Below are positions 2,570-21,187 of a stretch of DNA of 26,599 bases, one piece after another (within the stretch, counting starts at the first letter, position 1; each line of letters opens with the position of its first letter). Made by a program: the position numbers and the translations under genes. The stretch is from a virus. A model generated the notes under the pieces. It was not told the origin of the DNA and made no database searches. It worked only from the letters and a program-made list of their open reading frames with translations. Location: positions 1-26,599 of IMG/VR virus record IMGVR_UViG_3300047310_000188, one strand, 5' to 3'.

Positions 2570-2581
2570 GAGGCTGCAATG
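2544..2581 (+). repeat. 38-bp direct repeat, copy 1
   Basis: This copy is identical to 3353-3390. It begins ATGCGCAAGCCGCTGCACAA and ends with AGGAGG, five bases and the ATG of the following gene. Here the left part encodes the C-terminus of the 2369 gene. The first 11 bases also occur at 4074-4084. Confidence 0.95.
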
Positions 2582-3337
2582 GCCAGAGGTGGCCTTTTAG
2601 GCATGCTAAGTGACCCAAACGCCGACTCGCCTAATAACGACGAAATCCTTTCAGCATACGGCGTCGATCCCAACGACCCTTCAATTCATCTCATGCAGGT
2701 GCCCGGGAGCATCGCGTTATCAGGCGACCACTACGTAGATGATTCTGGCCACGGTCTCGTGGGCGCGCCCGATGCCAACGGTATGTTTATGATACCCTTG
2801 AATGCAGATAGTACATTTGCAGGTCAGCCGCAGGGGTCTAACTTTGGGCCACCCTATACGGACTCGCCGACTTACCATCAGGGCGCATCTATGGCTCCTT
2901 CTGACATGCTTGACTACAGCGGGGGCGATGACATTGCGTCCAACTGGCAGCAGTTCTCGGGCAAAGACAGTTCTAGTGGTGGCGGTTTCTTCACCATTGC
3001 CGACCTGTACGGAGCGCGTGGGCAGGACGTTCCAAGCGCATTCCAGCAGGGGTCGACGCTCCCCTCGACAAACAACTACCGTATGCTCCCGCCTGCGTAT
3101 CGGAAGCCCAATTATATCATGAGGAATGGTCGCATCATCGATACAAATTCTTATCTTCGTGGCCCCCCGCAGTATCAAACCATTAACGGCGGCGCCGGCG
3201 ATTCAATCGGGCCAGCATGGAATAGTGGTGCTGGGGTCGGCGTTCCGGCGGCTTGGGCTCCGGGTGCCGTCGGGCCGTCATACCAGGCTTGGCCGGGCCA
3301 GCTCCAACCTATGATTGTAACCCCGCAAGGGGTCTAA
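2579..3337 (+). CDS. Low-complexity virion-like protein, paralogue A
   Basis: This 252-residue protein is rich in Gly, Pro, Ser, Asp and Tyr, with few hydrophobic runs, like the disordered structural proteins of phages. It opens with ARGGLLGMLSDPN and has a conserved block STNNYRMLPPAYRKPNY with NGRIID near residue 185. Both features recur in the next gene (GLLDMIS; STNNWRLLPPQYRDPNY with NGRIMD), so the two are paralogues. The ATG sits 5 bases after AGGAGG inside the 38-bp repeat. Function is unknown; virion location is inference from composition. Confidence 0.75.
   Translation: MARGGLLGMLSDPNADSPNNDEILSAYGVDPNDPSIHLMQVPGSIALSGDHYVDDSGHGLVGAPDANGMFMIPLNADSTFAGQPQGSNFGPPYTDSPTYHQGASMAPSDMLDYSGGDDIASNWQQFSGKDSSSGGGFFTIADLYGARGQDVPSAFQQGSTLPSTNNYRMLPPAYRKPNYIMRNGRIIDTNSYLRGPPQYQTINGGAGDSIGPAWNSGAGVGVPAAWAPGAVGPSYQAWPGQLQPMIVTPQGV
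3321..3332 (+). other. CCCC-GCAA-GGGG hairpin at gene end
   Basis: Four C, a GCAA tetraloop (GNRA type, unusually stable) and four G form a perfect short hairpin over the last codons of the preceding gene. No T-tract follows, so it is not a standard terminator; it might slow ribosomes or protect the 3' end of a transcript, or be chance. Confidence 0.4.
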
Positions 3338-3352
3338 TTGACCAGCCCACTA

Positions 3353-3390
3353 ATGCGCAAGCCGCTGCACAAGATTAGGAGGCTGCAATG
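3353..3390 (+). repeat. 38-bp direct repeat, copy 2
   Basis: This is the exact second copy of 2544-2581. Here the left part lies in a 50-base intergenic space rather than in a gene end, while the right part again provides AGGAGG and the ATG. Extended to the left (CTAATGCGCAAGCC, 3350-3363) it also matches 4071-4084 over 14 bases, which marks it as the junction of a tandem duplication. Confidence 0.95.
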
Positions 3391-4074
3391 CCCCGAGGCC
3401 TTTTAGACATGATAAGCGCCCCGGACCCCACCCCGGAGGAGCAGGCCGCGCAAGTGGAACACAACATGCAGCTGGCGCTAGCGAGCCAAGCCGCCTTCCC
3501 GGAGCAGCAGAACCCCACTCCAGAGCAGCAGAACGCGCTGGTGGCGCATAACATGCAATTGGCGCAAGCGAGCCAGACCGGCGGCTTTGGCGGTGCCGAT
3601 AGCGCCCTCGACTACGTGGCCAGCCTCGGCGGCGACCAGACTCCCCCGCCGTTCGTAGGCGGCAGCATTCAAGGCGGCATGCCCGGCGTTTTTTCCCCCA
3701 ATGATCGGGCCTCGGCACTCGGCAACGTGTTCACCATGGACGCCTACAACGATCAGAGTGGAAACCCGACCGTGGCCAACAATCCCACGGGCAACTCGCA
3801 ATTTCTCTCGACCAACAATTGGCGACTGCTGCCGCCGCAGTACCGCGATCCCAATTACTACTTATACAATGGGCGGATTATGGATCGCCGGCTGACTCAG
3901 GCAACGCTTGCGCCGAAATCCATACTTGGGCAGGAATCCCAAGGCGATCCCGGATATTACTATGCTGGATTTGACCCGGGGACGTGGAAACATCCCTTCG
4001 GGTCTTTCGCTCATGACTTTGGATATCCAGGACAACTTGACACCTGGACCACTGGCGCGACCCCGACCTACTAA
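3388..4074 (+). CDS. Low-complexity virion-like protein, paralogue B
   Basis: This 228-residue paralogue of the preceding gene shares the GLLDMIS opening and the block STNNWRLLPPQYRDPNYYLY with NGRIMD. An internal repeat lies near the N-terminus: PTPEEQAAQVEHNMQLALAS and PTPEQQNALVAHNMQLAQAS. The remainder is Gly/Pro/Asp/Tyr-rich. The start is fixed by AGGAGG in the 38-bp repeat. Its TAA stop overlaps the ATG of the next gene by one base. A structural or virion-associated role is likely from composition only. Confidence 0.75.
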   Translation: MPRGLLDMISAPDPTPEEQAAQVEHNMQLALASQAAFPEQQNPTPEQQNALVAHNMQLAQASQTGGFGGADSALDYVASLGGDQTPPPFVGGSIQGGMPGVFSPNDRASALGNVFTMDAYNDQSGNPTVANNPTGNSQFLSTNNWRLLPPQYRDPNYYLYNGRIMDRRLTQATLAPKSILGQESQGDPGYYYAGFDPGTWKHPFGSFAHDFGYPGQLDTWTTGATPTY

Positions 4075-4271
4075 TGCGCAAGCCCATAGCCGCGACCATC
4101 AATGAGGGCGGGGATTGGCTACCGTGGCCATTGGACAGCAAGCGGCCCCGCGCCATTCTGCATGATGACGGTTCAATCTGGGATGAGGGTGTGGGCTGGC
4201 GGGACCAATCGCCAGAGGAGATAGCGCGGTCAATCAAGGCTGTGATAATGATGCAGTTTCCGCAGCGTTGA
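4074..4271 (+). CDS. Small hypothetical protein
   Basis: This 65-residue protein begins MRKPIAATINEGGDWLPWPL and contains ILHDDGSIWDEGVGWRDQ followed by a short helix. Its ATG overlaps the stop of paralogue B by one base, so it is likely translated by coupling. The first 11 bases (ATGCGCAAGCC) are those found inside the 38-bp repeat; the repeat copy at 3353 therefore carries what looks like the truncated 5' end of this gene. It runs into the minus-strand gene at 4234-4467 with 38 bases of convergent overlap. Function unknown. Confidence 0.6.
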   Translation: MRKPIAATINEGGDWLPWPLDSKRPRAILHDDGSIWDEGVGWRDQSPEEIARSIKAVIMMQFPQR

Positions 4272-4467
4272 ACCACTTGCCATCGAAGGAGTCGACCATC
4301 TTGCCGTCGAGCATGAGGGCGACGTTATTGGTCGGCATGTCGTGCTTGATGCGCGCGTGAAACATCTCAGCGGCGAGGTGGCGGGCAAGTGGCTCATGCG
4401 TCCCCAAGTGGTAGCCGTGCTGAGAGCAGTAGCCGGTGGCATCTTCGATAACGAGTGTGTAGGTCAT
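4234..4467 (-). CDS. Small hypothetical protein under operator control
   Basis: This 77-residue protein begins MTYTLVIEDATGYC and continues with a helix (HEPLARHLAAEMFHARIKHD) and a strand-turn segment (NNVALMLDGKMVDSFDGKWF). GGGAG lies 8 bases before the ATG, and promoter P2 with its operator lies 28 bases further upstream. It looks like a compact folded early protein. I do not recognise the family. Confidence 0.7.
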   Translation of the reverse strand: MTYTLVIEDATGYCSQHGYHLGTHEPLARHLAAEMFHARIKHDMPTNNVALMLDGKMVDSFDGKWFNAAETASLSQP

Positions 4468-4494
4468 GTCCGTGTCTCCCTCTCTGATGAATGG

Positions 4495-4523
4495 ACCTTA
4501 GGACAATCTGTCCTACATGTCAA
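4495..4523 (-). promoter_or_regulatory. Promoter P2 with operator in the spacer
   Basis: On the minus strand this reads TTGACA (4523-4518), 17 bases, then TAAGGT (4500-4495), a weak -10 box. The palindrome TAGGACAATCTGTCCTA (4499-4515) fills the spacer, in the same position as in P1 and P3. It drives the gene starting at 4467. Confidence 0.8.
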
Positions 4524-4532
4524 CAACTATTT

Positions 4533-4549
4533 TAGGACAATCAATCCTT
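4533..4549. promoter_or_regulatory. Distal operator-like site at P2
   Basis: TAGGACAATCAATCCTT keeps one perfect arm of the palindrome and a degraded second arm. Its centre is 34 bp from the P2 operator centre, the same distance as at P3, which would allow cooperative or looped binding. It overlaps the 3' end of the gene at 4541-5077. Confidence 0.6.
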
Positions 4550-5077
4550 TTTATTTGCGAGCATGAGGCGAAGCAATATCGCCACGGGTTCTGGGATTGA
4601 GCGTTCATCATTCGCCCAGCGCCGCGAGGTGCGCGGATCAACGCCAAGCGCCTTCGCGGCCGCTACTTGCGACAAGCCTAGACGTTCAATGGAATAGCGG
4701 TATTCGTCCGCCGTCATGTCATCTGAGCATTCGTCAATGGGCTGCTCCCATGGCACGAATTGCAGATTGCCGCGCGCTTCCTCTGCTATTTTGTCCAATA
4801 GCTCGCGCGTGGTAGACTCTGACAGCCCACCGGTATGGTCACCGGCGTCCATCATGTAATCGTTCTGGACGCAAGCTTCGCGCGCTGCATCTAGTGTCAT
4901 GCCGCGCTTGCGTATGAGACAGCCATACCCTGGCACGAAGGGATTGCCGTCCAAGATGTAGGCTAGGTCGCAGTGTGGTTTCAGGCCCCCTTTGGACGCT
5001 AAGAAGCGAAACAGGGAGATGGGCTTGCGGCTCCGAGGTGACCGTGTATGCCGCGCGACTACAGAGGTTCCGAGCAT
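4541..5077 (-). CDS. Polyvalent-type domain fused to helix-turn-helix
   Basis: This is a 178-residue protein from ATG 5077. Longer starts at 5119 and 5143 lie inside or upstream of promoter P3 and are rejected; GAGG a few bases upstream supports 5077. Residues 20-105 carry SLFRFLASKGGLKP, VPGYGCLIRKRGMTLDAARE and a late ELLDKIAEEARGN. This pattern occurs in large multi-domain (polyvalent) proteins of phages and mobile elements. Residues 126-172 form a helix-turn-helix, with LGLSQVAAAKALGVDPRTSR followed by RWANDERSIPEPVA, typical of alphaproteobacterial regulators. It is transcribed from P3, whose operator it may bind, so autoregulation is plausible. Both the domain fusion and the regulatory role are inference. 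Confidence 0.75.
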   Translation of the reverse strand: MLGTSVVARHTRSPRSRKPISLFRFLASKGGLKPHCDLAYILDGNPFVPGYGCLIRKRGMTLDAAREACVQNDYMMDAGDHTGGLSESTTRELLDKIAEEARGNLQFVPWEQPIDECSDDMTADEYRYSIERLGLSQVAAAKALGVDPRTSRRWANDERSIPEPVAILLRLMLANKKD

Positions 5078-5114
5078 CTTGTCCTCACCGGGTAGAGACC
5101 CTTGTGATGGAGCG

Positions 5115-5143
5115 ACCATAGGACCATTGGCCCTACGTGTCAA
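5115..5143 (-). promoter_or_regulatory. Promoter P3 with operator in the spacer
   Basis: On the minus strand this reads TTGACA (5143-5138), 17 bases, then TATGGT (5120-5115). The spacer holds TAGGACCATTGGCCCTA (5119-5135), an imperfect form of the palindrome with one arm substitution. It drives the gene starting at 5077. Confidence 0.82.
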
Positions 5144-5152
5144 GCACTAATT

Positions 5153-5169
5153 TAGGACAATCTATCCGA
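5153..5169. promoter_or_regulatory. Distal operator-like site at P3
   Basis: TAGGACAATCTATCCGA is one intact arm plus a degraded arm, centred 34 bp from the P3 operator. It touches the ATG at 5169, so a protein bound here could also affect the rightward gene. P2 and P3, each with its distal site, form related blocks of about 50 bp (4499-4547 and 5119-5167). Confidence 0.6.
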
Positions 5170-5498
5170 TGGCAGCACGCAAAGGACCATCACTGCCGGC
5201 GATGACGCATGAGCACCGCAGTAAGATAAAAGTCTCTCAAATTCTCAATGCGTTAGAGGAGCACGTGATGGGCAAGCGAGACATGCAGCAGACGCAGGTC
5301 ACCGCGGCCGTCGCCCTACTCCGCAAGGTCATGCCTGACCTGTCACAGACCACGATGTCAGGCGATGCTAATAATCCTGTGCTTCACCGTGTCATCATCA
5401 CCGGCGTCCGCCGCGCTGGTGATACACTGCCCAACGGCAATCCAGTCGAGTTGAAGGTGATTGAGGATGTGCCGCGCCTCACCTCGAAGGACCACTAG
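5169..5498 (+). CDS. Possible small terminase / DNA-binding protein
   Basis: This is a 109-residue protein. The core HRSKIKVSQILNALEEHVMG with QTQVTAAVALLRKVMPDLSQ and a following SGD matches a short phage protein pattern (RxKIxxSxLxNxLxxHV...LSxTQVxAAxxLLxKxLPDL). That pattern is often found upstream of large terminases and is suspected to be the small terminase or another DNA-binding protein. The first part is helical and could carry the DNA-binding helices; the tail is strand-like. No strong ribosome-binding site is visible before ATG 5169; ATG 5202 is an alternative. It is separated from the terminase block by the 520-base gap. Family naming is tentative. Confidence 0.6.
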   Translation: MAARKGPSLPAMTHEHRSKIKVSQILNALEEHVMGKRDMQQTQVTAAVALLRKVMPDLSQTTMSGDANNPVLHRVIITGVRRAGDTLPNGNPVELKVIEDVPRLTSKDH

Positions 5499-7147: not shown

Positions 7148-7558
7148 ATGACCTACCAAGAGATGGCCATGTATGCGAGCCTCATGTCGTGGAGCAATAA
7201 TTGTTCCGCGGAATGGGCAGCGATGGCCAAATATTATCGCGAACAGGCAGAAGCTTCAGAGGAGGAAACCATGGCTAAAGCAACTGCACGGGAAGGCGAG
7301 GCGCGCAAGACACCGGAAGAAGTACAGGCTGAAGTTGACGCGATGGTGCAGCCCTTGGCCGACTACCTGGTGGAAGCCTCCGACCATAATCTGCCGATTG
7401 CGCACAGGGCAGGACAGCTTCTGCGGGAAGCCTCTTCCCTGATTGTGACGGTGGCGTCAAGCCCGGAGCCGCCGGTGGAGTTGGTGCCGCCGCCGGGTGG
7501 GGAAGAGATTCCCGTGGCTACCAAGATGGCCCCGCTATTTGAGCCTGCTCATAAGTGA
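7148..7558 (+). CDS. Small protein upstream of large terminase
   Basis: This 136-residue protein has a Met/Trp/Tyr-containing helical start (MTYQEMAMYASLMSWSNNCS). A central helical region follows (TPEEVQAEVDAMVQPLADYL) with HRAGQLLREA, and then a Pro/Glu-rich tail. It overlaps the terminase start by 4 bases, so translation is coupled. Position immediately before the large terminase fits a small terminase subunit or a packaging helper. No DNA-binding motif is evident, which makes the 5169 gene the better small-terminase candidate. Confidence 0.6.
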   Translation: MTYQEMAMYASLMSWSNNCSAEWAAMAKYYREQAEASEEETMAKATAREGEARKTPEEVQAEVDAMVQPLADYLVEASDHNLPIAHRAGQLLREASSLIVTVASSPEPPVELVPPPGGEEIPVATKMAPLFEPAHK

Positions 7559-8901
7559 GTGATGCCGGGGTTCTGGACAGAGAGCCCGCGCTTGACGAAC
7601 TCGACCTCGGCTACATTGCCCGTCCCCAATTCGAAGCCTTCCACGCCAGAACCCAACGCTGGGGCGTGATTGTCGCGCATAGGCGCGCCGGCAAGACCGT
7701 CGCGTGCGTGATGGACCTGATTGACAGCGCCATCAGGTGTGAGAAGCCCAGGCCAAGATTCGCGTACATTGCTCCATTATATAAACAGGCAAAAACGGTA
7801 GCTTGGGATTATGTCAAGCAATACGGATTACGAATACCGGGAGCGGTGGCGTCAGAGAGCGAGTTGCGATTGGACCTGCCTGGTGGCGGCCAAGTGCGGC
7901 TGTTCGGGGCCGACAATCCTGACGCACTACGCGGAATGTATCTTGACGGGGTTATATTGGATGAAGCGGCGGATATGTCGCCGCGGGTGTTCTCGGAAGT
8001 CATAAGGCCGGCCTTGTCCGACCGCCAAGGCTGGGCGTTTTGGATTGGCACCCCCAAGGGGCAAAACGATTTCTATGACCTGGTCTATGGCGTTAAGGGT
8101 GGGTTTGAAGGCGCCCTCGCCTCCCCGGACTGGTTTTATCTGTGCCTTAAGGCGTCTGAGACTGGGATATTGCCACAAGAGGAATTGGAATCTGCCAAGC
8201 GCTCCGGGATGTCGCCGGAGCAATACGCTCAGGAGTTCGAGTGCTCGTTCCAAGCGGCTATCATGGGGGCCTATTACGGGCACGAGCTGGAGGCGGCCGA
8301 AAATGAGAACCGCCTGACGAAGAATGTCTACGATAGGACCCTGCAGGTTCATACGGCATGGGACCTTGGCCACTCCGACGCTACAGCCATTTGGTTTTAT
8401 CAGCAGCAGGGCTTCGAGATTCGGATTATCGACTTCTACTTTGCGACCGGGCATGCGCTGGACCATTATGTGACTGAGTTGCAAGGGAAGGCGGCGAGCC
8501 CTTCGAATATCGGCGGCTACATCTACGGCCGCCATTATCTTCCGCACGATGTGGAAGTCAAAGAGCTGGGCAGCGGCAAGACGCGCGTGGCAACGCTGCG
8601 GGGCCTGGGTATGCAGAACATCATCGTCGTCCCGAAGCTCAACGTTGATGAGGGCATCAACGCGGTGCGCAAGATATTCCCGCGCTGCTGGTTCGATAGA
8701 GAGAAATGCGCGGACGGCATCAAGGCGCTGCGGCAGTACCGGCGCGACTGGGATGACGTGCGCAAGGTCTTCTACGAGAAGCCCTACCATGATTGGGCGA
8801 GTGACCCGAGCGACGCATTCAGATATTTGGCGATAGGCCTGCAGGACCCGGAAGGCCGCAAGGCGGCAGGGCCAAAACGCGACAAGAAATGGATTTATTA
8901 A
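7555..8901 (+). CDS. terL: Terminase large subunit
   Basis: This 448-residue protein is the ATP-driven DNA-packaging motor that docks on the portal and cuts the concatemer. Walker A is AHRRAGKT (residues 41-48), Walker B is GVILDEA (about 132-138), and the coupling motif IGTP is at 164-167. The C-terminal RNase H-like nuclease starts with TAWDLGHSDATAIW (Asp270) and continues to about residue 430. Its length is normal for the family. It starts with GTG, overlapping the upstream stop by four bases (GTGA), without a strong Shine-Dalgarno, so coupling is likely. The portal gene follows after 36 bases. All key motifs are intact. Confidence 0.95.
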   Translation: MSDAGVLDREPALDELDLGYIARPQFEAFHARTQRWGVIVAHRRAGKTVACVMDLIDSAIRCEKPRPRFAYIAPLYKQAKTVAWDYVKQYGLRIPGAVASESELRLDLPGGGQVRLFGADNPDALRGMYLDGVILDEAADMSPRVFSEVIRPALSDRQGWAFWIGTPKGQNDFYDLVYGVKGGFEGALASPDWFYLCLKASETGILPQEELESAKRSGMSPEQYAQEFECSFQAAIMGAYYGHELEAAENENRLTKNVYDRTLQVHTAWDLGHSDATAIWFYQQQGFEIRIIDFYFATGHALDHYVTELQGKAASPSNIGGYIYGRHYLPHDVEVKELGSGKTRVATLRGLGMQNIIVVPKLNVDEGINAVRKIFPRCWFDREKCADGIKALRQYRRDWDDVRKVFYEKPYHDWASDPSDAFRYLAIGLQDPEGRKAAGPKRDKKWIY

Positions 8902-8937: not shown

Positions 8938-9555
8938 ATGGCCAAAAAAATGTCGGACGGGGAATTGAGCGCCATCCTTGACGGCTGGGTGACCGATGCG
9001 CGCTCCTTCGACCGCTCCGACTTAGAACTCTCACGCGAATGGGCCATCAAGTTCTACGACGGCGAGTGCGATATCCCGACTCAGGAAGGCCGCTCCCAGG
9101 TCGTCTCGCATGATGTAGCGGACGCGCTGGAATGGATATTGCCGGCGTTGCTGCGCATCTTCACCGCTTCCGCCACGACTGCAATCTATGAGCCAGTCAG
9201 CCAGGAAGATGAGATTGGCGCCAAGCAGGCGACAATGTGCATCAACCACCTGTTCCAGAATGAGTGTGAGGGATACCGAATTTTGCATCACGCCATGCAC
9301 GACAGCCTGTTGCATGGCAACGGGCCCGTCAAATCCTGGTTCGAGCACGCCAAGGAATACAAGGTGGAGACGGTGCGAGGCTTGAATGAGATGGAATATC
9401 AGGCGCTCTTGTCCGAGCCGGACTTGGATGAGGTGCTGGAGGTGACGGAATATCCCGAGGGTCATCCAGAATTGGCAGAGGAAGGTGAGCCGCCGACGCT
9501 GGATGACGAAGAGGGTGAGGGTGAAGGCAAGGCAGAAGGCGAGGGATATACCTGA
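8938..9555 (+). CDS. Portal protein, N-terminal part
   Basis: This 205-residue product matches the start of portal proteins of the podovirus type that are normally one chain. It has an N-terminal helical segment (MSDGELSAILDGWVTDARSF), then GRSQVVSHDVADALEWILPA with LLRIF. An EDEIGAKQATMCINHLF helix follows, then LHGNGPVKSWFEH, and last an acidic linker. The chain stops at 9553-9555 after a Gly/Glu-rich run, and the next frame begins at the overlapping ATG (TGATG). The continuation of the portal fold lies in that second frame. It is a separate subunit, a coupled fragment, or the product of a sequence error; the ribosome-binding site AAGGATAG supports translation of the start. Confidence 0.85.
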   Translation: MAKKMSDGELSAILDGWVTDARSFDRSDLELSREWAIKFYDGECDIPTQEGRSQVVSHDVADALEWILPALLRIFTASATTAIYEPVSQEDEIGAKQATMCINHLFQNECEGYRILHHAMHDSLLHGNGPVKSWFEHAKEYKVETVRGLNEMEYQALLSEPDLDEVLEVTEYPEGHPELAEEGEPPTLDDEEGEGEGKAEGEGYT

Positions 9556-11654
9556 TGGCTTATATGCCCGGTCCTGGTGGACCTCCTCCTCCTGGAATGC
9601 CGCCCGGTGGACCTCCTGGAATGCCGCCTGGACCTCCCGGACCTGGACTGCCTGGCATGCCGGGACCGCCGCCGCCTCCTGGAATGGGCGACCCGAATCA
9701 ACCGATGCCGGGAGAAATGCCGCCGCCTATGATGGTCCCGATGGGGCCGCCGATGCTCTACGACGTGAAAATCAAGCGTTGTATCAAGAGCGGGCAACTC
9801 AAGTGCAAGAATATCCCGCCGGAAGACTTCCTCATTGATCCCAACGCGACAAAGCTGCGCGATGGCGGCGGCCGCTTCTTTGGCGACGTGTCGCGAATGA
9901 CGCGAAGCGAGGCCAAGCTGAAATGGCCCAAGAAGGCCGAGACAATAGACGAAATGCCGGCATGGACGAGCGCGTCAGGTGAATATGGAAGAGAGAAGCA
10001 AGCGCGCGACCAGAGATATTGGTCATTTCGGGAGACCTTCACCGACAAGGCCAGCGAGGAGGTCGAAATCGTCGAGTGCTACATCAACATCGACTTTGAT
10101 GGCGATGGCGTCTCCGAGTGGCGGCAAGTCTGCTTCGGCCCCAACCATGGCGAGGATGCCATCCTTTCCAACGAGGAGGTCGGCGACCATCCCTACGACA
10201 GCGTGACTGCCAACCCGATGCCGCACCGGTATCGCGGTCGCTCGCTGTACGATGATGTCGGCGACATCCAGCGGGTGAAGACGGTCCTGGAACGCCAGTT
10301 GCTGGACAACATCTACCTGCTCAATCAGCAGCAGATTGCGGTCAATGCCAGCGTCGTCGCCAACATGGACGCGCTCACCAATCCCGAAATTGGTGGCGTG
10401 GTCATCACCAACGGCAACCCGGCGGAAGCCATCCTGCCGCTGGTGATTCCGTTCCAGGCCGACAAAATCATGGGGACGCTGACCTACTTCGACCAAATCA
10501 TGGAAAAGCGCACCGGCGTGTCGCGCTCTACCTTGGCGATGGACACCGATGCGCTGCAGTACCAGACCGCGGCGGCGGTCAATCAGACGCAAACGTCATC
10601 CTATTCCAAGGTCGAAACCTACGCCCGCAACATTGCGGAGTGCGGTGGGCTGAAAGAACTCTTCGGAAGACTCCTTAAACTGTTCGTGGAAAATCAGAAG
10701 GCCGTAAAACAGATAAAGGTCAACGGCAATTTCATCCCGATGGACCCGCGCGGCTGGAATGCCGACATGCACGTCACAATAAATATTGGATTGGGGTCAG
10801 GAAGCAGAGACAGAGACCTGGCTACGCTGGGTGGAATTGCACAAAAGCAGGAATTGTCCATCCAAGGCTTGCAGAGCCCCTTCAACCCGATATGCAATGT
10901 CAGTCATTTGTTCACCACCTACCGGAAAATGGGGGAAATTGCGGGGCTCAAGAGCCCGGAGCAGTTCTTTCCCGAGATTACCCAGCAAGATGTCATGCAA
11001 ATGGCCCAGCAGCAGGCGCAGCAGCAAAAACAAGCGCCGCCGCCGCCCGAGGTGATGAAAATCCAGGCCGACATGCAGCTCGGACAGCAAAAACTGCAAG
11101 CCGAGACGCAAATGAAGCAGATGGAAATCAACGGCAAGATGCAGGGCGACAATAACCGCGCTCAACTCGACCAACGACAGGCCGAGCAGAAGGCACAGAA
11201 GGAATTGGTGCAGGCCCAGGCCGATGTGGCCGTGCAGCAGCGCAAAGCACAGACCGAAAGCGACCTCGCACAGCAACGCTTCAACCTGGAAAGCGACCTC
11301 AAGACCCAGGAATTTGCCATGAACCTCGCCATGAAGCGCGCTGAGGTCATTGCAAAGTTTTCAACGCCGCAAGGCCAGGACGAAAACGGAAATCCCATCA
11401 AAGCCGACTCGAGCGCCATGGAAATGGCCCTCGCACAACTGGATAATGTGACTCCCATGCCCAGCAAACGTGACGACGCCAATCAGGCTGCCTTGATGCA
11501 AATCATGCAGCAGAACGCGCAGATGATGCAGCAGTTCGCGCAGGCCATGCAGCAAATGGCGGACCACATGGCGGCGCCGACCGAGATTGTGCGCGACCCG
11601 CGTACCGGCAAAGTCGTCGGCTCGCAAAAGCGCGTCAACGGACGAATGAATTAA
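9555..11654 (+). CDS. Portal protein, main part with Pro-Gly-Met linker
   Basis: This is a 699-residue protein. Residues 1-68 are a collagen-like linker of Pro, Gly and Met (for example GMPPGGPPGMPPGPPGPG). From YDVKIKRCIKSGQLKCKNIP onward, with PEDFLIDPNA, it continues the portal fold begun in the previous gene. It includes the stem and crown segments ECYINIDFDGDGVSEWRQV, NPMPHRYRGRSLYDDVGDIQ and EKRTGVSRSTLA. From about residue 475 it is a Gln-rich coiled coil (QQQAQQQKQ, MKQMEINGKMQ), resembling the long helical barrel seen in some portals. The portal forms the dodecameric ring at the capsid vertex. Its ATG overlaps the previous stop; GAGG lies about 10 bases upstream. Confidence 0.88.
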   Translation: MAYMPGPGGPPPPGMPPGGPPGMPPGPPGPGLPGMPGPPPPPGMGDPNQPMPGEMPPPMMVPMGPPMLYDVKIKRCIKSGQLKCKNIPPEDFLIDPNATKLRDGGGRFFGDVSRMTRSEAKLKWPKKAETIDEMPAWTSASGEYGREKQARDQRYWSFRETFTDKASEEVEIVECYINIDFDGDGVSEWRQVCFGPNHGEDAILSNEEVGDHPYDSVTANPMPHRYRGRSLYDDVGDIQRVKTVLERQLLDNIYLLNQQQIAVNASVVANMDALTNPEIGGVVITNGNPAEAILPLVIPFQADKIMGTLTYFDQIMEKRTGVSRSTLAMDTDALQYQTAAAVNQTQTSSYSKVETYARNIAECGGLKELFGRLLKLFVENQKAVKQIKVNGNFIPMDPRGWNADMHVTINIGLGSGSRDRDLATLGGIAQKQELSIQGLQSPFNPICNVSHLFTTYRKMGEIAGLKSPEQFFPEITQQDVMQMAQQQAQQQKQAPPPPEVMKIQADMQLGQQKLQAETQMKQMEINGKMQGDNNRAQLDQRQAEQKAQKELVQAQADVAVQQRKAQTESDLAQQRFNLESDLKTQEFAMNLAMKRAEVIAKFSTPQGQDENGNPIKADSSAMEMALAQLDNVTPMPSKRDDANQAALMQIMQQNAQMMQQFAQAMQQMADHMAAPTEIVRDPRTGKVVGSQKRVNGRMN

Positions 11655-12200: not shown

Positions 12201-15200
12201 ATGCGCAATTCGTGGCTTCCGCCAGAATGGAACGGGCAGCGACGGATTGCGCATCCAGTCAATTGGACGCGACTTCCTGAGTTCGACGTAGGCGTTGCTC
12301 ACGTTCAATATCGAGTAGACCACGGCCACGAAAATCGTTGGTATCTGTACGTCCGCAAGTTCAATGAGGCGGATGTCAAAGCGTTCCCGGTGTTGGCCTC
12401 AACCGTCATCACCTCCTCACCTGGCACTACCCAGACCATCACCTCGGATGCCACTTGGAATAACGCCGCTAACACCGTCGAGGTGATAGGCGCCGGCGCC
12501 CGAGGCGCTCATGGGTCCGGTACCTCAACCTCAGGCGGCGGCGGCGGCGGCGGGGCCTTTACCCGTATCACCAACGCCAGCATCACAACACCAGGCACGG
12601 ATCCCTATTACGCCCGCGTTGGCGGCGTTACGGCAACGGACGGCACGGCCGGCGGCGATAGCTGGTGGACCCTCACCTCCCCCGGCACCAGCTTTCCCAA
12701 CAGCGGTACAGCGGCCGGCGCCAAGGGCGCCGCAGCCCTTGCCTCCGCGACCTCGGCAACCGGTGGAGTTGGTGGCGATAAGCTCGCCGCCTATGCCAAC
12801 CCGGCCACAAGCTCGTTCAAGAACGCCGGCGGGAATGGCGGCAATGGTAGCGGCGTCTCTGCCGCTGGCGGCGGCGGTGGTGGTGGCGCTGCAGGATGGA
12901 GCGGAGACGGCATCAACGTTGCAGGCACGGGCCCGACCGCGGGCGGCGCCGGTAATGCAAATGCGAGTGGCGGTGGCACCGGCGGCTCAGTTGGCAACGG
13001 CGCGGGCGCGGTTGGGGGTAATGGCACCAATATCCAGACCGGACCAAATGCGGGCTCCGGCGGGGGTGGCGGCGGCGCCAATGTCAGTGCGGGAACCGGC
13101 GGCGCAGGCGGAAACTACGGTGGTGGTGGCGGCGGCGGAGGCCGCTCAACTGGCGTCGGTGGTCAAGGTGCCCAAGGCGTCATCGTCCTCACCTGGACGC
13201 CTATCTTCGCCGGCACCCTCGTTGTTACCGAGGCTGCGGATACCCCGGCCTTCCCCAGTGGCAAGGTCGAATGGCGAGCAAATCTCGCAACGCAGGACGG
13301 CACGCCATACGAGTTGCTGCTGCACTTCGACGGTGCCAATGCCTCAACCACGATTGTCGATAGCGGCGGGAAGAATAAGACCGTCACCACCCACGGCGCA
13401 GCGCAGATAGACACCTCGCAACTGGTGTTTTCCAGCAGCGCCTTGAAGCTCGCGGCCGCCGGCGATTACATAGATGTCGAAACATCCGCTGCTATCTTTG
13501 GCACCGTCAATTTCACCATCGACTTCCGCGCCAGACTCTCGGCCACCGGTACCGCTCAGACGTTCTATGACGGCGGCACCGGCAGCTTTGTAATTTCCTA
13601 CGATGGGACAAATCTGAAGTTCGTCAGTCCGGCGGGGACCATCACCGGCGGGGCTCTTGCCGCAAATACCAACTATCACATCGCGGTCACGCGGTCGGGT
13701 GGCACTACACGATTGTTTCTGGATGGTGTGGCGGTCGGAGGACCACTCAGTGATACGACGTTCTACACGTCGAGCTTCGGTTATCCGCAGATAGGGGGTG
13801 GCGTTGCCATCGCCTCTGGCACCCTGGTTGTGACCGAGGCCGGCGATACGGCCGCCCTCACGGGCACTGCTGGAGGTCTCGATTCTGCTACCTCGGCGTG
13901 GATTGCAGCGGTCGGGTCCGGCAACGTCGATAGCGCACACACAGGCGCTGTCGATACTCTGATTGTTGGGCTTAAGTCCGATGGCATTTGGAGCAAGCTC
14001 GACCGGCTCTGGATGTTTGCTGCCCAGAACACCAACAGTGCGCTGGTTGACTTGGTTGCGCTGGATGTGGCCACAGCAACGAACTCACCAACGTTTAGAA
14101 TCGACCAAGGCTATGCAGGCAACGGCAGCACCTCGTACATCAACACGACCTACAATCTCTCCACGGATAAGGTCAATTACACATCCAGTTCTGCCCATAT
14201 CGGAATATGGGACAATACGAGCAGAGGCGTAGACGGCACAATTGCATTTGGGTTTTATGACGGTGGAAGCAATCTTACCGATTTCTTTCCTTATTATTGG
14301 GGCGGGACCAACGGGCCATTAGTGCGGTTTAATTTCGTAGCAGGCGTCAACATCGCCAGCAGTTCCTCGCAGGGATTTGTCCTCAACCAGCAAATCAGCA
14401 GCACAACAGAGGAGATGTATTACAACGGCAGCTCCCTGGGGACGGGCGGGTCATCCGCTGCAATCGTAGCCGGGAATCTCCCGTTCTTTGTCGGTGGCCG
14501 CAACGATAATGGGACGATGGCAGGTGGAACAACTGACCAAATCTCAATGGTCAGCTTCGGCGGGAAGCTCACCAGCACCCAGGCCGCAAACTACTACACC
14601 CGTCTTCTCGCCTACATGGGGGCGGCCCCAACCCAGAGGTGGATTGATGCTGTTGTGGCTGCTGGAGGGACAGTAAGCGCCGGACGCCAGACGCTGGTGA
14701 AGGCACTCATCCAAGGCTTAATTCTTGATGGTGTCTGGGGCAAGCTCGACCGGCTATGGATACTCGCAGCGGAGAACAGCCAGAGCGCACTGGTTGACTT
14801 GGTTGCGCAGGATGTTGCCTCTGCAGTCAATTCGCCCACGTTCACGGCAGACCGAGGCTATGCCGGTAACGGCTCTACCTCGTACATTGACACGACATTC
14901 AATCCCTCGACGCAGGGCGTTAATTTCACATTGGATGACGCCCATCTGGCGGTCTGGGACAATACCAACAGAGCGGCAGCGACGACGGTCGCAATAGGCA
15001 ATTACGATGGTTCCGCCGAAGCAGATTTGTTCCCATATCAAAATGTGCTCACTGCCACCGGTGTCGGTAATCGTATCAATCTCGCAGCGGCCGACCCCGC
15101 TGCCATTGCCTACACTTCATCCCTTGGCTTCTTTATCGGTCAGTCCATTTCCCACGCTACTCAAGAGGTGTATGTCAATGGCACGTCTATTGGGACACAT

Positions 15201-15392
15201 CCAAAGACGTATGGCGCCTACGTCGTTAATCTCCCGTTCTTTGTCTGCGCAGAAAATGCTGGCGGCTCGATTTATGCGCCAACGACTGACCAAATCTGCA
15301 TGGCCAGCATTGGCGCAACACTAACCAGCACTCAGGCAGCAAACTATTACAGCCGGCTGCGCACCTACATGACTTCTGTCGGAGTCCCCTGA
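12201..15392 (+). CDS. Modular tail fibre / receptor-binding protein
   Basis: This is a 1063-residue protein. Residues 1-70 form a conserved N-terminal part (LPPEWNGQRRIAHPVNW), probably the virion attachment region. Residues 94-327 are very Gly-rich, like glycine-rich adhesin domains of tail fibres. Around 340 is one TEAADTPAF repeat. Residues about 370-532 are a LamG/concanavalin-like domain that stops early, at a QIGGG sequence, without its usual last segment. A second TEAGDTAAL unit follows, then two tandem lectin-like modules (about 566-812 and 813-1062), both with KLDRLW, NSPTF and GYAGNGSTSYI. The role is most likely host-surface binding. The start lacks a clear ribosome-binding site. 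It is followed, with a one-base overlap, by the 15392 gene. Confidence 0.8.
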   Translation: MRNSWLPPEWNGQRRIAHPVNWTRLPEFDVGVAHVQYRVDHGHENRWYLYVRKFNEADVKAFPVLASTVITSSPGTTQTITSDATWNNAANTVEVIGAGARGAHGSGTSTSGGGGGGGAFTRITNASITTPGTDPYYARVGGVTATDGTAGGDSWWTLTSPGTSFPNSGTAAGAKGAAALASATSATGGVGGDKLAAYANPATSSFKNAGGNGGNGSGVSAAGGGGGGGAAGWSGDGINVAGTGPTAGGAGNANASGGGTGGSVGNGAGAVGGNGTNIQTGPNAGSGGGGGGANVSAGTGGAGGNYGGGGGGGGRSTGVGGQGAQGVIVLTWTPIFAGTLVVTEAADTPAFPSGKVEWRANLATQDGTPYELLLHFDGANASTTIVDSGGKNKTVTTHGAAQIDTSQLVFSSSALKLAAAGDYIDVETSAAIFGTVNFTIDFRARLSATGTAQTFYDGGTGSFVISYDGTNLKFVSPAGTITGGALAANTNYHIAVTRSGGTTRLFLDGVAVGGPLSDTTFYTSSFGYPQIGGGVAIASGTLVVTEAGDTAALTGTAGGLDSATSAWIAAVGSGNVDSAHTGAVDTLIVGLKSDGIWSKLDRLWMFAAQNTNSALVDLVALDVATATNSPTFRIDQGYAGNGSTSYINTTYNLSTDKVNYTSSSAHIGIWDNTSRGVDGTIAFGFYDGGSNLTDFFPYYWGGTNGPLVRFNFVAGVNIASSSSQGFVLNQQISSTTEEMYYNGSSLGTGGSSAAIVAGNLPFFVGGRNDNGTMAGGTTDQISMVSFGGKLTSTQAANYYTRLLAYMGAAPTQRWIDAVVAAGGTVSAGRQTLVKALIQGLILDGVWGKLDRLWILAAENSQSALVDLVAQDVASAVNSPTFTADRGYAGNGSTSYIDTTFNPSTQGVNFTLDDAHLAVWDNTNRAAATTVAIGNYDGSAEADLFPYQNVLTATGVGNRINLAAADPAAIAYTSSLGFFIGQSISHATQEVYVNGTSIGTHPKTYGAYVVNLPFFVCAENAGGSIYAPTTDQICMASIGATLTSTQAANYYSRLRTYMTSVGVP
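13899..15389 (+). repeat. Tandem lectin-like module duplication
   Basis: Two in-frame copies of about 745 bases each (13899-14639 and 14640-15389) encode related domains starting at Trp (AWIAAV / RWIDAV) and ending in TSTQAANYY. Many stretches are nearly identical in DNA, for example around SALVDLVA in both copies. The copies could recombine and change receptor specificity. Confidence 0.85.
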
Positions 15393-15628
15393 TGATGATT
15401 CTTCTGACTCCGGCAGAAGCTGATGAGGTTCGTGGCGATACTGAGCCCGGTCATACACTGGAGCCGGTGAAGCTCAAGGACGGCAATTACGTGTTGCCGC
15501 CCGAGGTGATGGACGACCCGATGCACGCCGAGCATCACGACTTTCTCAATGGCTTGCCGCTCATCGCCGACCCGCTGCCTGAAGATTATTACCATCCCTT
15601 CGGGGCTACTGGTGCCGCTGGACCATGA
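15392..15628 (+). CDS. Small protein between fibre genes
   Basis: This 78-residue protein begins MMILLTPAEADEVRGDTEPG and continues with HTLEPVKLKDGNYVLPPEVM and DPMHAEHHDFL. The pattern (VRGxTxxGxxLxPVxLxDGxYVLPxxVxxDPxH) recurs beside tail-fibre genes of phages, from memory. It could be a small accessory or chaperone for fibre assembly. It overlaps the previous gene by one base and the next by four (ATGA). Confidence 0.65.
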   Translation: MMILLTPAEADEVRGDTEPGHTLEPVKLKDGNYVLPPEVMDDPMHAEHHDFLNGLPLIADPLPEDYYHPFGATGAAGP

Positions 15629-17370
15629 CCACTTGGATTGACGAATTTAGAATCGTCAAGAATCAAGCGGTTTGGACTTCAGGATTTACGCCGCCCACCG
15701 TTGCCTATGCCACCGGCGACATACCGGCCTTCACGGGCTTAGTCACAGACCGCACCGCTGTTCTTGCGACGACCGAGGCGGCGGATACCGCGTCCTTCAC
15801 CGGCACCGTTGCCTCGGCGGCAGTCACCGGCACACTCATCGTCACGGAGGCTGCAGACGTTGCGGCTTTCAACGGCGTAGCCAATCCATTCGGCACTCTT
15901 GTCGTCACCGAGGCCCCCGACACTGCGGCATTCCCTGCAGGCAAGGTTGAATGGCGGGCCACACTAGTCGTTACAGAAGCAGGTGACACTGCTTCCTTCC
16001 CTGGCGGCACCGTCCAGTGGAGTGTCACTCTAATCACGGCGGAGGCTGCTGACGTTGCGGCCTTCAATGGCAATGTTAGCTGGAACGCAACACTAGTCGC
16101 GACGGAAGCGGCGGACACCGCAGCCTTCAACGGTCAAGTTTTCAGTGCTGTCACCGGCACGCTGATAACAACGGAGGCGGCCGACACTCCGGCCTTCACC
16201 GGCACCGTTGTAACTGCCGGAACCATTACCGGCACGTTCCTCGTCACCGAGGCGGCCGATACTCCAGCCTTCACCGGCGCCGTTACAGGTGTTGCGGGCG
16301 CACTGGCGGTAACGGAGGGGGCCGATACGGCGGCCTTCAACGGCCAAGTTCTAAATGTCGTCACCGGCACTCTAATCACAACCGAGGCGGCCGATACCGC
16401 GGCCTTCACCGGCAACCTCTCGCTTCTTGGCATCAGCGGCACACTCACGGCGACGGAAGCAGCAGACACTGCGTCCTTCACCGGCACCAAAGCAACCACC
16501 GTCTCTGCGAAGCTGGTCACCTCGTTCACGCCAAGCTCTAATCGCAACGACTTCACGATTCTCGTGGGAATGCAGTTCGCTCTTACGGTCAACACACCCT
16601 TTAACGGCATCGGCCTGCGCTGTGGGCTCAACAACACAGGTCTCCACACTGTTGGCCTGTATGACTTTGCCACCAACACGCTGCTGCGCTCGGCCAACGT
16701 TGACCTGACCGGCAAAACGGAAGGGACATTCTACTACGCCGACATAACGCCAATCACGCTTGTTGCCGGGACAACCTACGCCCTGATGGCGTTGGTCACA
16801 GCCGGCAATGGGCAAATGTGGTCCGAGTATGGACCCACGACGCTCAAGGACGCGCAGCCGGGTAGCATAGGTGCGTGCTACTCACTCCCGCCAGGGGCGG
16901 CAATCACCTCCACGTCCCTCGCCGACTCGCAATACCACGGCGTTGACCTCAGTTATTCGGTCACCGTTCCTGATGCCGCTCCCATCCGAGGTGGTGGGGA
17001 TGCGTGGGTTGACTACGGGCGTGAGAAAAGGCGCAAGCCGCGCGGTCTGAGACAGGCCCAGAAGTTCTTCGAGGAGCGCCAACTTGAGCGCGACGCAGAA
17101 AAGCGCCGCCTTGAGGAAGTTGCAGCACGCGCCAGGGAAAGAGCGGAGCAGGAAGCCGCAAGGGCGTTCCAGGACGGTGAGTTTGCCCGCGCGCAGGCCA
17201 TTCTGGATGCTGCAAGACAGCAACAGCAACGCCAAGCCCAAATCGACAACATGATGATGGCGCTGTCCAACGACAGGCTGGAACAGGCTCGCCTTGAACT
17301 GGCGCTACTGCAAGCGCGCATGAATGAAAGGGATGAGGAGGACGCTATTTCAGTCCTTCTCCTACACTAA
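15625..17370 (+). CDS. Repeat-array fibre protein with coiled coil
   Basis: This is a 581-residue protein. Residues 2-27 (TWIDEFRIVKNQAVWTSGFT) match the closing segment of a LamG domain, without the rest of that domain. Residues about 47-288 hold 11 repeats with the core TEAADTAAFTG and variable linkers. Residues 290-455 form a beta-sandwich resembling DUF4082 (GMQFALTVNTPFNGIGL; NTGLHTVGLYD). From about 470 there is a Glu/Arg/Gln-rich coiled coil (QKFFEERQLERDAEKRRLEE). It is probably a structural fibre or fibre-linked protein. The start overlaps the previous stop by four bases (ATGA). Confidence 0.75.
   Translation: MTTWIDEFRIVKNQAVWTSGFTPPTVAYATGDIPAFTGLVTDRTAVLATTEAADTASFTGTVASAAVTGTLIVTEAADVAAFNGVANPFGTLVVTEAPDTAAFPAGKVEWRATLVVTEAGDTASFPGGTVQWSVTLITAEAADVAAFNGNVSWNATLVATEAADTAAFNGQVFSAVTGTLITTEAADTPAFTGTVVTAGTITGTFLVTEAADTPAFTGAVTGVAGALAVTEGADTAAFNGQVLNVVTGTLITTEAADTAAFTGNLSLLGISGTLTATEAADTASFTGTKATTVSAKLVTSFTPSSNRNDFTILVGMQFALTVNTPFNGIGLRCGLNNTGLHTVGLYDFATNTLLRSANVDLTGKTEGTFYYADITPITLVAGTTYALMALVTAGNGQMWSEYGPTTLKDAQPGSIGACYSLPPGAAITSTSLADSQYHGVDLSYSVTVPDAAPIRGGGDAWVDYGREKRRKPRGLRQAQKFFEERQLERDAEKRRLEEVAARARERAEQEAARAFQDGEFARAQAILDAARQQQQRQAQIDNMMMALSNDRLEQARLELALLQARMNERDEEDAISVLLLH
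15763..16488 (+). repeat. TEAADTAAF repeat array
   Basis: Eleven units of roughly 20-30 residues share the core T-E-A-A-D-T-A-A-F-T/N-G, and a twelfth, degenerate one (GDIPAFTG) precedes them. DNA copies around GAGGCGGCCGATAC are close to identical in several units, so the number can change by recombination. Two more units lie in the upstream fibre gene. Confidence 0.9.
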
Positions 17371-17379
17371 GGACATCAC

Positions 17380-17763
17380 ATGGCAGACCCCACCTCGCGC
17401 GATTTCATGGATTGGCGCACGCGCTTTGCCAACGCCACGCCCCCGTTGCGGCAGAACATGCTCAACTCGCAGAACGACAGCGCGGGCGTGATGGAAGCCA
17501 TCTCCAACATGCCCTACGTCTTCGACCCGCGGAAATTCCTCGGACAGCCGGGCAACTACACCCAGATTGGGCAGTCGCAGGGCCAAATCTCGCAGGCCGT
17601 CAACCCCAACAAGATGTCGCCGGCCGCAGTGGCGCAACTCGGTGGCTTGCCCGCGCCCATAACCGCAACAACGGCGCCGCCGTCTGATTTCCAAGGTCTG
17701 TTGCAGATGCTTGGTCCACAGTTTGGACCGCTCTTGAACAGCCTCTTTCCCGGAAGGAACTGA
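17380..17763 (+). CDS. Virion-associated hypothetical protein
   Basis: This 127-residue protein begins MADPTSRDFMDWRTRFANAT and is rich in Pro, Gln, Asn and Ala. Residue pairs such as GQSQGQISQA suggest a flexible region, and the end LLQMLGPQFGPLLNSLFPGR is amphipathic. GGA 6-8 bases before the ATG supports the start. It lies between the fibre genes and the disordered 17766 gene; the function is unknown. Confidence 0.65.
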   Translation: MADPTSRDFMDWRTRFANATPPLRQNMLNSQNDSAGVMEAISNMPYVFDPRKFLGQPGNYTQIGQSQGQISQAVNPNKMSPAAVAQLGGLPAPITATTAPPSDFQGLLQMLGPQFGPLLNSLFPGRN

Positions 17764-17765
17764 CC

Positions 17766-18941
17766 ATGGAAAACAACCAAGGCAACGACCCTCTGGGCGA
17801 CATGTTTCAAACCATGTTTGGCGGCGGCCGGCGCCGACGCCGCCGCTCCATGGTTCCCGAGACCGTCCAGGGCATGGGCGGATATGGTGGAGATGGCCCC
17901 ACTGGCTACGACTACGGGGGGAAAGCACCGGAGTACCCTGGTCAGTACGGATACATCTGGCGCGGCGACACACCCGTCTCTTATGACCCGAATCTAGGCG
18001 TTCCCGGTGGCTATAGCGTCTTCCATCGCGGGCAAGGCGCTCTTGCAGGACTTCCGGGTAATACGGGCCTGAATCCGCTTCCGGGTTATGGTAATAATGG
18101 AAATCCCCTTCCGGGTTATACGGGGGTGGGTAATTCGAGGGGAACTCCACAAACAGGAATGGCCCCTCCGGGGGCACCGTGGTTTGCCAGTGCGGCCGGC
18201 ACGGTCTTCGCCAATGGCCAGGACGCCCCCTACATTGGCGGAAATCCCGGTGTTGACCCCACTGGTCAGTACTACATCCCACCTGGACAGCCGGGCGGGG
18301 CAGCGTCAATTCCGTGGCAGGGTTCCTGGGCCGACCCTAACTCCCCCAATTTCTTTCTATCGCAGTTTGGCTTCCAGACACCCAACGACTACTTTAATCC
18401 CGGCCAATGGCAATGGGGGCAGGGTCCGGCACTCTATGGCAATGCGCAAAGCCACGGCGGCGCTGGCAGTTGGGGAAATGGTTGGACCGGCGGTCCTCAA
18501 GGTCAGGGTCCAAGTCCGCAAGGTCCGGCCCCAGGCGGGGGATACGGTCAACCTCCCGGTGGCGCACAAGGCGGTTCTCCACCCATGACCCCACCCGGCG
18601 GCAACGGTCCCACCGGGCCTGCCTCCAATCTCCCGTCCGGCTTCCAGATGGGGCCCAACGGCCAGGTCGGCAATTTCAACATGTATGCGGGCATGCCCTA
18701 TGCCGGCGGCATGGGGCCCTACAGCGGATGGCTCCCGCCCGCGGTGGGCAGTCAGGTTGACTACGGCGCGCCTGGTACAGCCCCCTCGCCGCAGGACGCG
18801 GCATCGGCTGCACCCGGCACCTACGCACCCGGCCCGACCGTCCAACCCGGTCAGTACGCCAACCTCGGTATGCCCCAAGGTGGAGGCCAGAGTGGCGGAA
18901 CCTGGGGCACAAACGGAGCCCAGGGCTGGGGCTACTGGTGA
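17766..18941 (+). CDS. Gly/Pro/Gln-rich disordered virion-like protein
   Basis: This is a 391-residue protein. The first 40 residues are charged, with an unusual run of six Arg (GGRRRRRRSMVPE), possibly nucleic-acid or capsid binding. The rest is low complexity, rich in Gly, Pro, Tyr and Gln (for example GYGNNGNPLPGYTGVGN). It is expected to be disordered or fibrous. AAGGAA just before the ATG is a ribosome-binding site. It overlaps the next gene by 4 bases. A virion role is inferred from the operon position; the family is not recognised. Confidence 0.7.
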   Translation: MENNQGNDPLGDMFQTMFGGGRRRRRRSMVPETVQGMGGYGGDGPTGYDYGGKAPEYPGQYGYIWRGDTPVSYDPNLGVPGGYSVFHRGQGALAGLPGNTGLNPLPGYGNNGNPLPGYTGVGNSRGTPQTGMAPPGAPWFASAAGTVFANGQDAPYIGGNPGVDPTGQYYIPPGQPGGAASIPWQGSWADPNSPNFFLSQFGFQTPNDYFNPGQWQWGQGPALYGNAQSHGGAGSWGNGWTGGPQGQGPSPQGPAPGGGYGQPPGGAQGGSPPMTPPGGNGPTGPASNLPSGFQMGPNGQVGNFNMYAGMPYAGGMGPYSGWLPPAVGSQVDYGAPGTAPSPQDAASAAPGTYAPGPTVQPGQYANLGMPQGGGQSGGTWGTNGAQGWGYW

Positions 18942-19189: not shown

Positions 19190-20167
19190 ATGGCAGACGA
19201 ACAACCCGCTCCCGCGAGCGGCAGCGCACCCGCGTCCGAACCATCTAACGAAGCCCTCGAATCGCAACTCGCCTCATTCGATTTCGGGGATGCTGAGCCT
19301 GAGAAAAAGCCGCCTGCGGGCGGTGAGCAGGCAAAACCCAAAGAGGCCGGTGACGACGAAGCGATGGCGACCGTTGCGGCGGAAGCCAAAGCAGAGCAGC
19401 CAGCGCCCGAAGACGATGACCCGGAAGAAACCCTGCGGGATGGAAAGAAGGTCAGACGTTCGGAGTTAAAGCGAGGCTATCGTCCCGACTGGGAAGCCAG
19501 AATCCAGCAGCATATGCAACGCGAGCAAGCGTTTGCACAGGCAACGAATGGCTTCAATCAAGCCCAGCAACAGACGGCTGTATTGCTGCAACAGGCTGTG
19601 GAGGTGGTTGCCTCCCGCATGCCGCAAGCACCGGACCCCTCGCTCGTAGACACAGACCCGTTCGAATACCAACGGCGGAAACTCATCTACGACACCGAGA
19701 AGTCCAAGCTCGATGACATCGTGGTCAGACGCGATGCCTTCATGCAGAAGACTCGCGCAGACCAGTATCAAGCTACTCAACGGCAACTCCTCCATGAGCG
19801 CGAGGCCACGCTCCGGGCTCTCCCTGATTTGAGAGACCCGGTGAAGGCCGCCAAGTTCGTGGAAGGCACCAAAAGTCTTGGTGCAGAACTCGGCTACACG
19901 CCACAGGAACTCGCGCAAGTGCGAGACCACAGGTTGATGAAGCTCATCAACATGGCGCTCGAAGGTAAGCGAATGAAAGCAGCCTACGAGTCGGCGCGTG
20001 CCAAGCTCAAGGAGAATGCAGCGAAGGCTGTTGAAGTGCAAACGCCACAGCGGCGGCGAACACCGTCCGCAGTGGAGTCGCAGTCAATTGCAACCCGTAT
20101 CAAGACGCTGGCAAAAAACCCGAACTCCGCGAAGGCGGCGGTCGATGTGCTTTCACAATTTGACTAG
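19190..20167 (+). CDS. Capsid scaffolding protein
   Basis: This 325-residue protein sits directly before the major capsid gene, as scaffolds do. It has an acidic, Pro/Glu/Ala-rich first third (about residues 1-85). Next comes a DGKKVRRSELKRGYRPDWEA segment typical of podovirus scaffolds. A long Gln- and charge-rich helical region follows (residues about 110-285), with a basic, Arg/Lys-containing C-terminus that would contact the capsid protein. GGAG lies just upstream of the ATG. It would guide procapsid assembly and be lost or removed before DNA packaging. Confidence 0.85.
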   Translation: MADEQPAPASGSAPASEPSNEALESQLASFDFGDAEPEKKPPAGGEQAKPKEAGDDEAMATVAAEAKAEQPAPEDDDPEETLRDGKKVRRSELKRGYRPDWEARIQQHMQREQAFAQATNGFNQAQQQTAVLLQQAVEVVASRMPQAPDPSLVDTDPFEYQRRKLIYDTEKSKLDDIVVRRDAFMQKTRADQYQATQRQLLHEREATLRALPDLRDPVKAAKFVEGTKSLGAELGYTPQELAQVRDHRLMKLINMALEGKRMKAAYESARAKLKENAAKAVEVQTPQRRRTPSAVESQSIATRIKTLAKNPNSAKAAVDVLSQFD

Positions 20168-20182: not shown

Positions 20183-21187
20183 ATGACCATTCTCGGCGGC
20201 ACCACGACCACGTATGACGTGAATCGTCTGCGTGAGCAATTTTCCAACGCCATCTACATGATTTCGCCCGAAGAGACTCCGTTTCTGAGTCTTGTCGAGC
20301 GCGAGTCAATTGATGGCAAACACCCGGAATGGCAGACGGACGTTTTGGCGACCCCTGTCATTACCAACCAGCAACTGGAAGGTGATGAATACGCCTACAC
20401 CACGATTGCTGCGACAACCCGCATTGGCAACTACACCGAAATCGCCAGAAAATCGTATCTGATTGCTGGCTCGGAAGAAAAGAATACCAAGGCCGGTCCT
20501 CAATCCGAACTTGGCCGTGAGCGGGTGAAGAAGGGCAAGGAACTCAAGACCGACATGGAAGTCAGTTTGCTTGCCAACAAGGGCAGCGTAGTCGGCACCA
20601 CGGCGGTAATCCGCAAGACCGCAGGCTTTGCGGCCTGGGTTACGACCAACGACCAGCGCGGAGCCACCGGAACAGACGGCGGCTTCTCCGGTGGCACGGT
20701 GACGGCTGGCACTCCCGGCACACAGCGGGCGTTCACCAAGCCGTTCCTGGATGCTGCCATCCTAAGCGCATACACCGCGGGCGGCAGTCCAAGTGTTCTG
20801 ATGGTCTCGCCCTACGTCAAGACTGTGTTCTCGACCTTCATCAATGCCGCTGGACAAAACACCAGCGTCATCCAGTCGCGTGTCGAGAACAATAACCAGG
20901 CGACCATCTACGCTGCGGCTGACACCTACAGGTCGGATTTTGGGCTCATCGACGTGATGCCCAATCGTCAGCTCGCTCGCGCTGGCGCCACTGCAGCATC
21001 GACTGCCTACCTCATCGACCTCGATAAGGTGGCAGTCGGAATGTACCGCGACATCTTCGAAGATCGTCCGGCAAAAACCGGCGACGCAGAGAAGCGCGTG
21101 CTGCTCTGCGAGTACGCTCTCATCATGAAAAATGAGGCGGCTCATAGCTGCATCTACGGCCTCTTCGGCCTGACCGCCTCTTCGTAA
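20183..21187 (+). CDS. Major capsid protein (SU10/DUF5309 type)
   Basis: This 334-residue protein forms the icosahedral shell (HK97 fold). The opening DVNRLREQFSNAIYMISPEE with TPFLSLV is the hallmark of the SU10-type/DUF5309 capsid family. Other family features are YTEIARKSYLIAGSEE, GRERVKKGKELKTDMEVSLL, the LMVSPYVKTVFSTF segment and DVMPNRQLA. AAGGAG lies 9 bases before the ATG. The length is typical. It follows scaffold and is closed by a rho-independent terminator, which fits high expression of this gene. Confidence 0.92.
   Translation: MTILGGTTTTYDVNRLREQFSNAIYMISPEETPFLSLVERESIDGKHPEWQTDVLATPVITNQQLEGDEYAYTTIAATTRIGNYTEIARKSYLIAGSEEKNTKAGPQSELGRERVKKGKELKTDMEVSLLANKGSVVGTTAVIRKTAGFAAWVTTNDQRGATGTDGGFSGGTVTAGTPGTQRAFTKPFLDAAILSAYTAGGSPSVLMVSPYVKTVFSTFINAAGQNTSVIQSRVENNNQATIYAAADTYRSDFGLIDVMPNRQLARAGATAASTAYLIDLDKVAVGMYRDIFEDRPAKTGDAEKRVLLCEYALIMKNEAAHSCIYGLFGLTASS

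Follow-up and report, generated by a model that had tools for sequence, protein, structure and literature searches.

Few machines of tailed phages and herpesviruses are as conserved as the portal. It has been described as a homo-dodecamer, built from copies of one chain (PMC13386823), and the closest described systems are each built from a single continuous polypeptide. The portals of the LUZ24-like Pseudomonas phages Pa223 (PDB 9NWM) and PaP3 (7SXK) are the best solved relatives, by both sequence and fold, of the locus studied here, and both are single chains, as is the SU10 portal (PDB 7Z44), a member of the same Pfam family (PF23899). The P22 portal protein gp1 is likewise a single chain, comprising a wing (residues 6-319 and 417-524), stem, clip (344-398), crown, and barrel (PMC12005531). 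It carries a continuous trigger loop that faces the portal perimeter and has been proposed to swing as DNA winds round the portal, to sense this DNA, and to start maturation (PMC5290284); residue Ile266 of this loop contacts the scaffold (PMC12005531). In the open-access literature, which set the scope of our search, we found no split or two-gene portal.

Two portal genes and the place of their junction in the fold

The stretch of DNA analyzed here, hereafter the window, is the record of an uncultured virus (26.6 kb; 26,599 nucleotides) that carries a head module of the SU10/LUZ24 type, in which terminase, portal, scaffold, and capsid protein follow one another in the order of that type (starts at 7555, 8938, 19190, and 20183; Table 1). 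We assign its portal to the SU10/LUZ24 type as well (PF23899, phrog_1216), with the qualification that it lacks one general trait of this type, the single chain. A single polypeptide is common to the other relatives, although it is no part of the profile definition, whereas the window encodes the portal in two open reading frames (ORFs) that lie in different frames. We refer to their products as the N chain and the C chain. Together, the two chains tile the 593 positions of the PF23899 profile with almost nothing missing or doubled (Table 1), and they likewise tile the solved Pseudomonas phage portals: On Pa223, the N chain spans residues 9-172 and the C chain residues 181-677 (E 3.5e-55), and the cut site is occupied in that protein by a short loop (173-180).

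Table 1. Features of the portal locus and the head module in the window.
Feature	Coordinates	Strand	Evidence
Large terminase, next gene upstream of portal	7555..8901	+	PF03237, E 1.5e-06; phrog_2, E 1.4e-35
Portal N chain (ORF1), 205 aa; first/outer part of wing domain	8938..9555	+	PF23899 (SU10_portal) positions 2-175, E 3.4e-47
Acidic C-terminal tail of N chain, fast-evolving; net charge about -12 in the window	9454..9552	+	Acidic in 10 of 10 members
Shine-Dalgarno-like GAGGGA, 8 bases 5' of C-chain start	9541..9546	+	Anti-Shine-Dalgarno hybrid, -8.0 kcal/mol
TGATG overlap: N-chain stop TGA (9553-9555), C-chain start ATG (9555-9557)	9553..9557	+	Read directly
Portal C chain (ORF2), 699 aa; remaining wing, stem, clip, crown, barrel	9555..11654	+	PF23899 positions 171-593, E 2.2e-122
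Pro/Gly/Met-rich N-terminal tail of C chain, 67 aa	9555..9755	+	Composition
Head scaffolding protein	19190..20167	+	phrog_3927, E 2.2e-27
SU10-type major capsid protein	20183..21187	+	PF17236, E 2e-76

An earlier, sequence-only reading of this DNA had placed the limits of both ORFs and their TGATG overlap exactly, and it had correctly noted that the second frame is closed by a TGA at 9522-9524 and is open from 9525 onward. A Shine-Dalgarno-like site precedes the C-chain start, with a strength that is equaled at 3.6% of nearby positions. The first 73 residues of the C chain consist of 42% Pro, 22% Gly, and 16% Met, and the resulting tail is almost uncharged. The tail comprises 67 residues, and the recognizable fold resumes with LYDVKIKR at residue 68. 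The description of this stretch as a collagen-like linker did not hold in the strict sense: The longest regular Gly-X-Y run amounts to 3 triplets in the window and to 1-4 triplets among the split relatives described below, far from the long regular repeat of a collagen-like protein, and what precedes the fold is a disordered tail rather than a collagen.

The position of the cut within the fold was examined on a single-chain relative (L028, positions 3026-5320 of its contig), which carries, precisely at the cut position, a disordered, Pro/Gln-rich linker about 70 residues long. An AlphaFold model of this protein (mean pLDDT, 80.6) displayed the linker as a low-confidence coil between two strands (165-176 and 245-266), and a Foldseek search with the model returned the portals of Pa223, SU10, and PaP3 as best matches. 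In the alignment supplied for this model, MAFFT misplaced the Pro-Gly head of the window, and the alignment served only as depth. A model of the N chain alone, computed from ten sequences, was unusable.

P22 was mapped through Pa223, because a direct profile alignment of the family with the single P22 portal sequence gave no match. P22 carries a conserved basic motif at residues 272-275, inside the trigger loop (226-277); by structure, the equivalent motif of Pa223 has been placed at residues 190-193 (PMC13386823), and these indeed read KKKR in the sequence. The cut, at Pa223 173-180, falls 10-17 residues before this motif. Taken together with the published equivalence, this places the cut inside the counterpart of the P22 trigger loop (PMC13386823, PMC5290284). 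Judged by the P22 domain limits (PMC12005531), the N chain would then comprise the outer wing only, and the C chain the whole channel.

Persistence of the cut among relatives and its competing explanations

The same junction was present in two near-copies of the window, one 99.8% identical in DNA over 7.3 kb with no gaps (L002) and one from a different strain (L016; 97.7% identical). Counted apart from these, nine further distinct contigs share the cut position, with C chains 44-95% and N chains 48-87% identical to those of the window, which yields ten distinct split members, the most distant being a 45-kb contig (L049). None of the relatives inside the group displayed a fused frame. The statement in the sequence-only reading that related portals are single chains therefore held outside this group, in 49 of 49 related loci, and failed inside it, where all ten members are split. 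The outside loci include Rhizobium phage RHph_N3_2, Pelagibacter phage HTVC106P, and loci in Devosia, Polaromonas, and Massilia genomes; some are near-copies of one another or partial contigs, the partial ones still spanning the junction. A scan of bacterial genomes yielded only single-chain relatives and no split portals.

In trees computed without the linker, the split members formed one clade, with an SH-aLRT value of 100 (40 rows) and bootstrap/SH-aLRT values of 100/100 (28 rows plus outgroup), and a single change of state was obtained in 200 of 200 bootstrap trees. The portal split arose once, in the common ancestor of this clade. The likely sister group is single-chain: It contains RHph_N3_2 (L015) and L028, both of which have one open frame, with the linker of L028 translated through.

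We consider it highly probable that the portal gene was split once, inside the trigger-loop equivalent, and has since been kept as two adjacent, usually overlapping genes whose chains co-assemble into one ring. The earlier proposal of two chains made by coupled translation is supported. The way in which the chains tile the fold and the selection acting on each of them point strongly to one shared ring, and the overlaps suggest that translation of the two genes is coupled: Across the eight members without an insert, stop and start overlap by 1-23 nucleotides (with inferred start codons).

The alternative that fares best, although we regard it as unlikely, is that both chains are made but that the ring consists of the C chain alone, the N chain having another role, such as that of an assembly factor. 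The N chain is indeed a separate gene, and the whole DNA channel appears to reside in the C chain (from the P22 limits, PMC12005531). However, the N core has kept full similarity to the wing found in single-chain portals, and its conservation is as strict as would be expected of a part of the ring, with dN/dS values of 0.03-0.17; the C core gave 0.06-0.08 (both from pairs with unsaturated dS). Both cores are under strong purifying selection. The N-chain tail evolves fast, with the net charge ranging from -3 to -12 while remaining acidic in every member. Moreover, the two genes have stayed adjacent in 10 of 10 members, allowing for insert ORFs in two of them (L007 and L049).

A programmed frameshift or translational bypass that fuses the halves is very improbable. 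Slipping would be geometrically possible in most members, where the open frames overlap by 26-89 nucleotides, but the direction needed differs even between close relatives (-1 in the window, +1 in L004). Over the whole clade, the second frame is offset by -1 in two members (the window and L049), by +1 in seven, and by 0 in one (L007), and hence no single direction of shift joins the halves. The frame overlap is, furthermore, absent in L007 and L049, where a complete ORF separates the halves and makes a fused chain by slipping impossible. In each member, the C frame possesses a separate start close to the N-chain stop, and the sequence-only reading saw no classical slippery heptamer within 9525-9555.

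The first of these intervening ORFs encodes 161 amino acids (L007, 3359-3844), overlaps with its start the last part of the N chain, and joins the C chain through a TGATG; searches of Pfam, PHROGs, IMG/VR, and phage records returned no relative of it. The second encodes 100 amino acids (L049, 6555-6870) and is flanked by an 18-bp direct repeat (TGCTCGCACCTAACCCCG); searches at the level of Pfam and PHROGs returned only a weak helix-turn-helix match. The junction has thus taken up genes in two lineages.

The same features bear on a sequencing or assembly frame error in the Pro-Gly-rich run, which the sequence-only reading had offered as its other explanation and by which the true gene would have a single frame. 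The setting is error-prone, as the junction is GC-rich and of low complexity and contains a 24-bp short tandem repeat at 9588-9641. The cut nevertheless recurs in other contigs and at the equal place in nine distinct relatives with differing offsets, two of which hold complete ORFs between the halves, and the terminase next to the portal is a single open frame in 10 of 10 other contigs that hold it (shortened in L006 only by the contig end). The differing offsets and the complete intervening ORFs exclude both frameshifting and frame error for the group, and we give an error in the window itself next to no credence. Equally negligible is a decaying portal pseudogene in a defective element, of which a broken frame would be the usual sign, as dN/dS lies well below 1 in both cores and even deeply diverged members have kept the split state. 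Recoding of the stop codon was rejected, since the halves lie in different frames in 9 of 10 members, the remaining one (L007) has a complete gene between them, and the N-chain stop itself varies among members (TGA, TAA, or TAG).

A proposed two-chain ring and its possible origin

In the two-chain portal that we favor, the C chain would be translated by re-initiation after the N-chain stop. In some members, a Shine-Dalgarno site belonging to the C chain would probably assist; this site is strong in 5 of 10 members and weak in the other 5. The N chain (outer wing) and the C chain (remaining wing, stem, clip, crown, and barrel) would then fold together, such that the strands flanking the former loop are contributed by different chains, and the ring would presumably hold 12 N and 12 C chains. 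In each subunit, the single loop would give way to a pair of disordered tails, the first acidic and the second rich in Pro, Gly, and Met. These tails may provide spacing or scaffold contact, or may keep negative charge at the DNA-facing perimeter. A normally single protein that exists as separate cooperating polypeptides has likewise been described in the split RNA polymerase beta of jumbo phages (PMC7824862), although that protein is an enzyme, whereas the split portal is the DNA channel of the head.

More tentatively, the clade may represent a natural 12+12 portal in which the trigger loop is physically cut and acidic and Pro-Gly-Met tails stand in its place, such that packaging control and scaffold release proceed without a continuous loop or via two free tails, at a junction that tolerates the insertion of a whole gene; we regard this extended reading as possible rather than probable. 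The clade has diverged deeply with its portal in two chains, which implies that continuity of the wing loop is not required. As a natural cut-loop experiment, the clade makes the DNA-sensor idea developed for P22 directly testable.

The linker of L028 at the cut site suggests an order of events in which the linker grew first and fission followed, as read from one lineage and not from a reconstruction, and it is plausible that this linker represents the intermediate before fission. The clade thereby displays a likely route of gene fission, in which a loop grows into a Pro-rich linker and then breaks. Annotation pipelines would probably report such a portal as fragmentary or erroneous.

Neighboring genes of the head module

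As for SU10, an SU10-type capsid protein and a scaffold follow the portal in the window, and large additional genes sit between portal and scaffold. Two large ORFs of 1063 and 581 amino acids were observed there (12201-17370), bearing a Laminin_G_3 match and TEAADTAAF-type repeats. Across this region, the DNA of the L016 near-copy is only about 80% identical to the window, against 97.7% upstream, a strong strain divergence that fits fast-evolving adhesins, as expected. In L007, a further unmatched ORF (2330-2755) lies between the terminase and the portal N chain.

Several proteins encoded in the window are rich in Gly, Pro, Gln, and Asn (2579-4074, 17380-18941, and 23029-23748). A Pfam scan of low-complexity proteins (at 2579, 17766, and 23029) returned no match, and low-complexity proteins of the structural module seem common in this phage.
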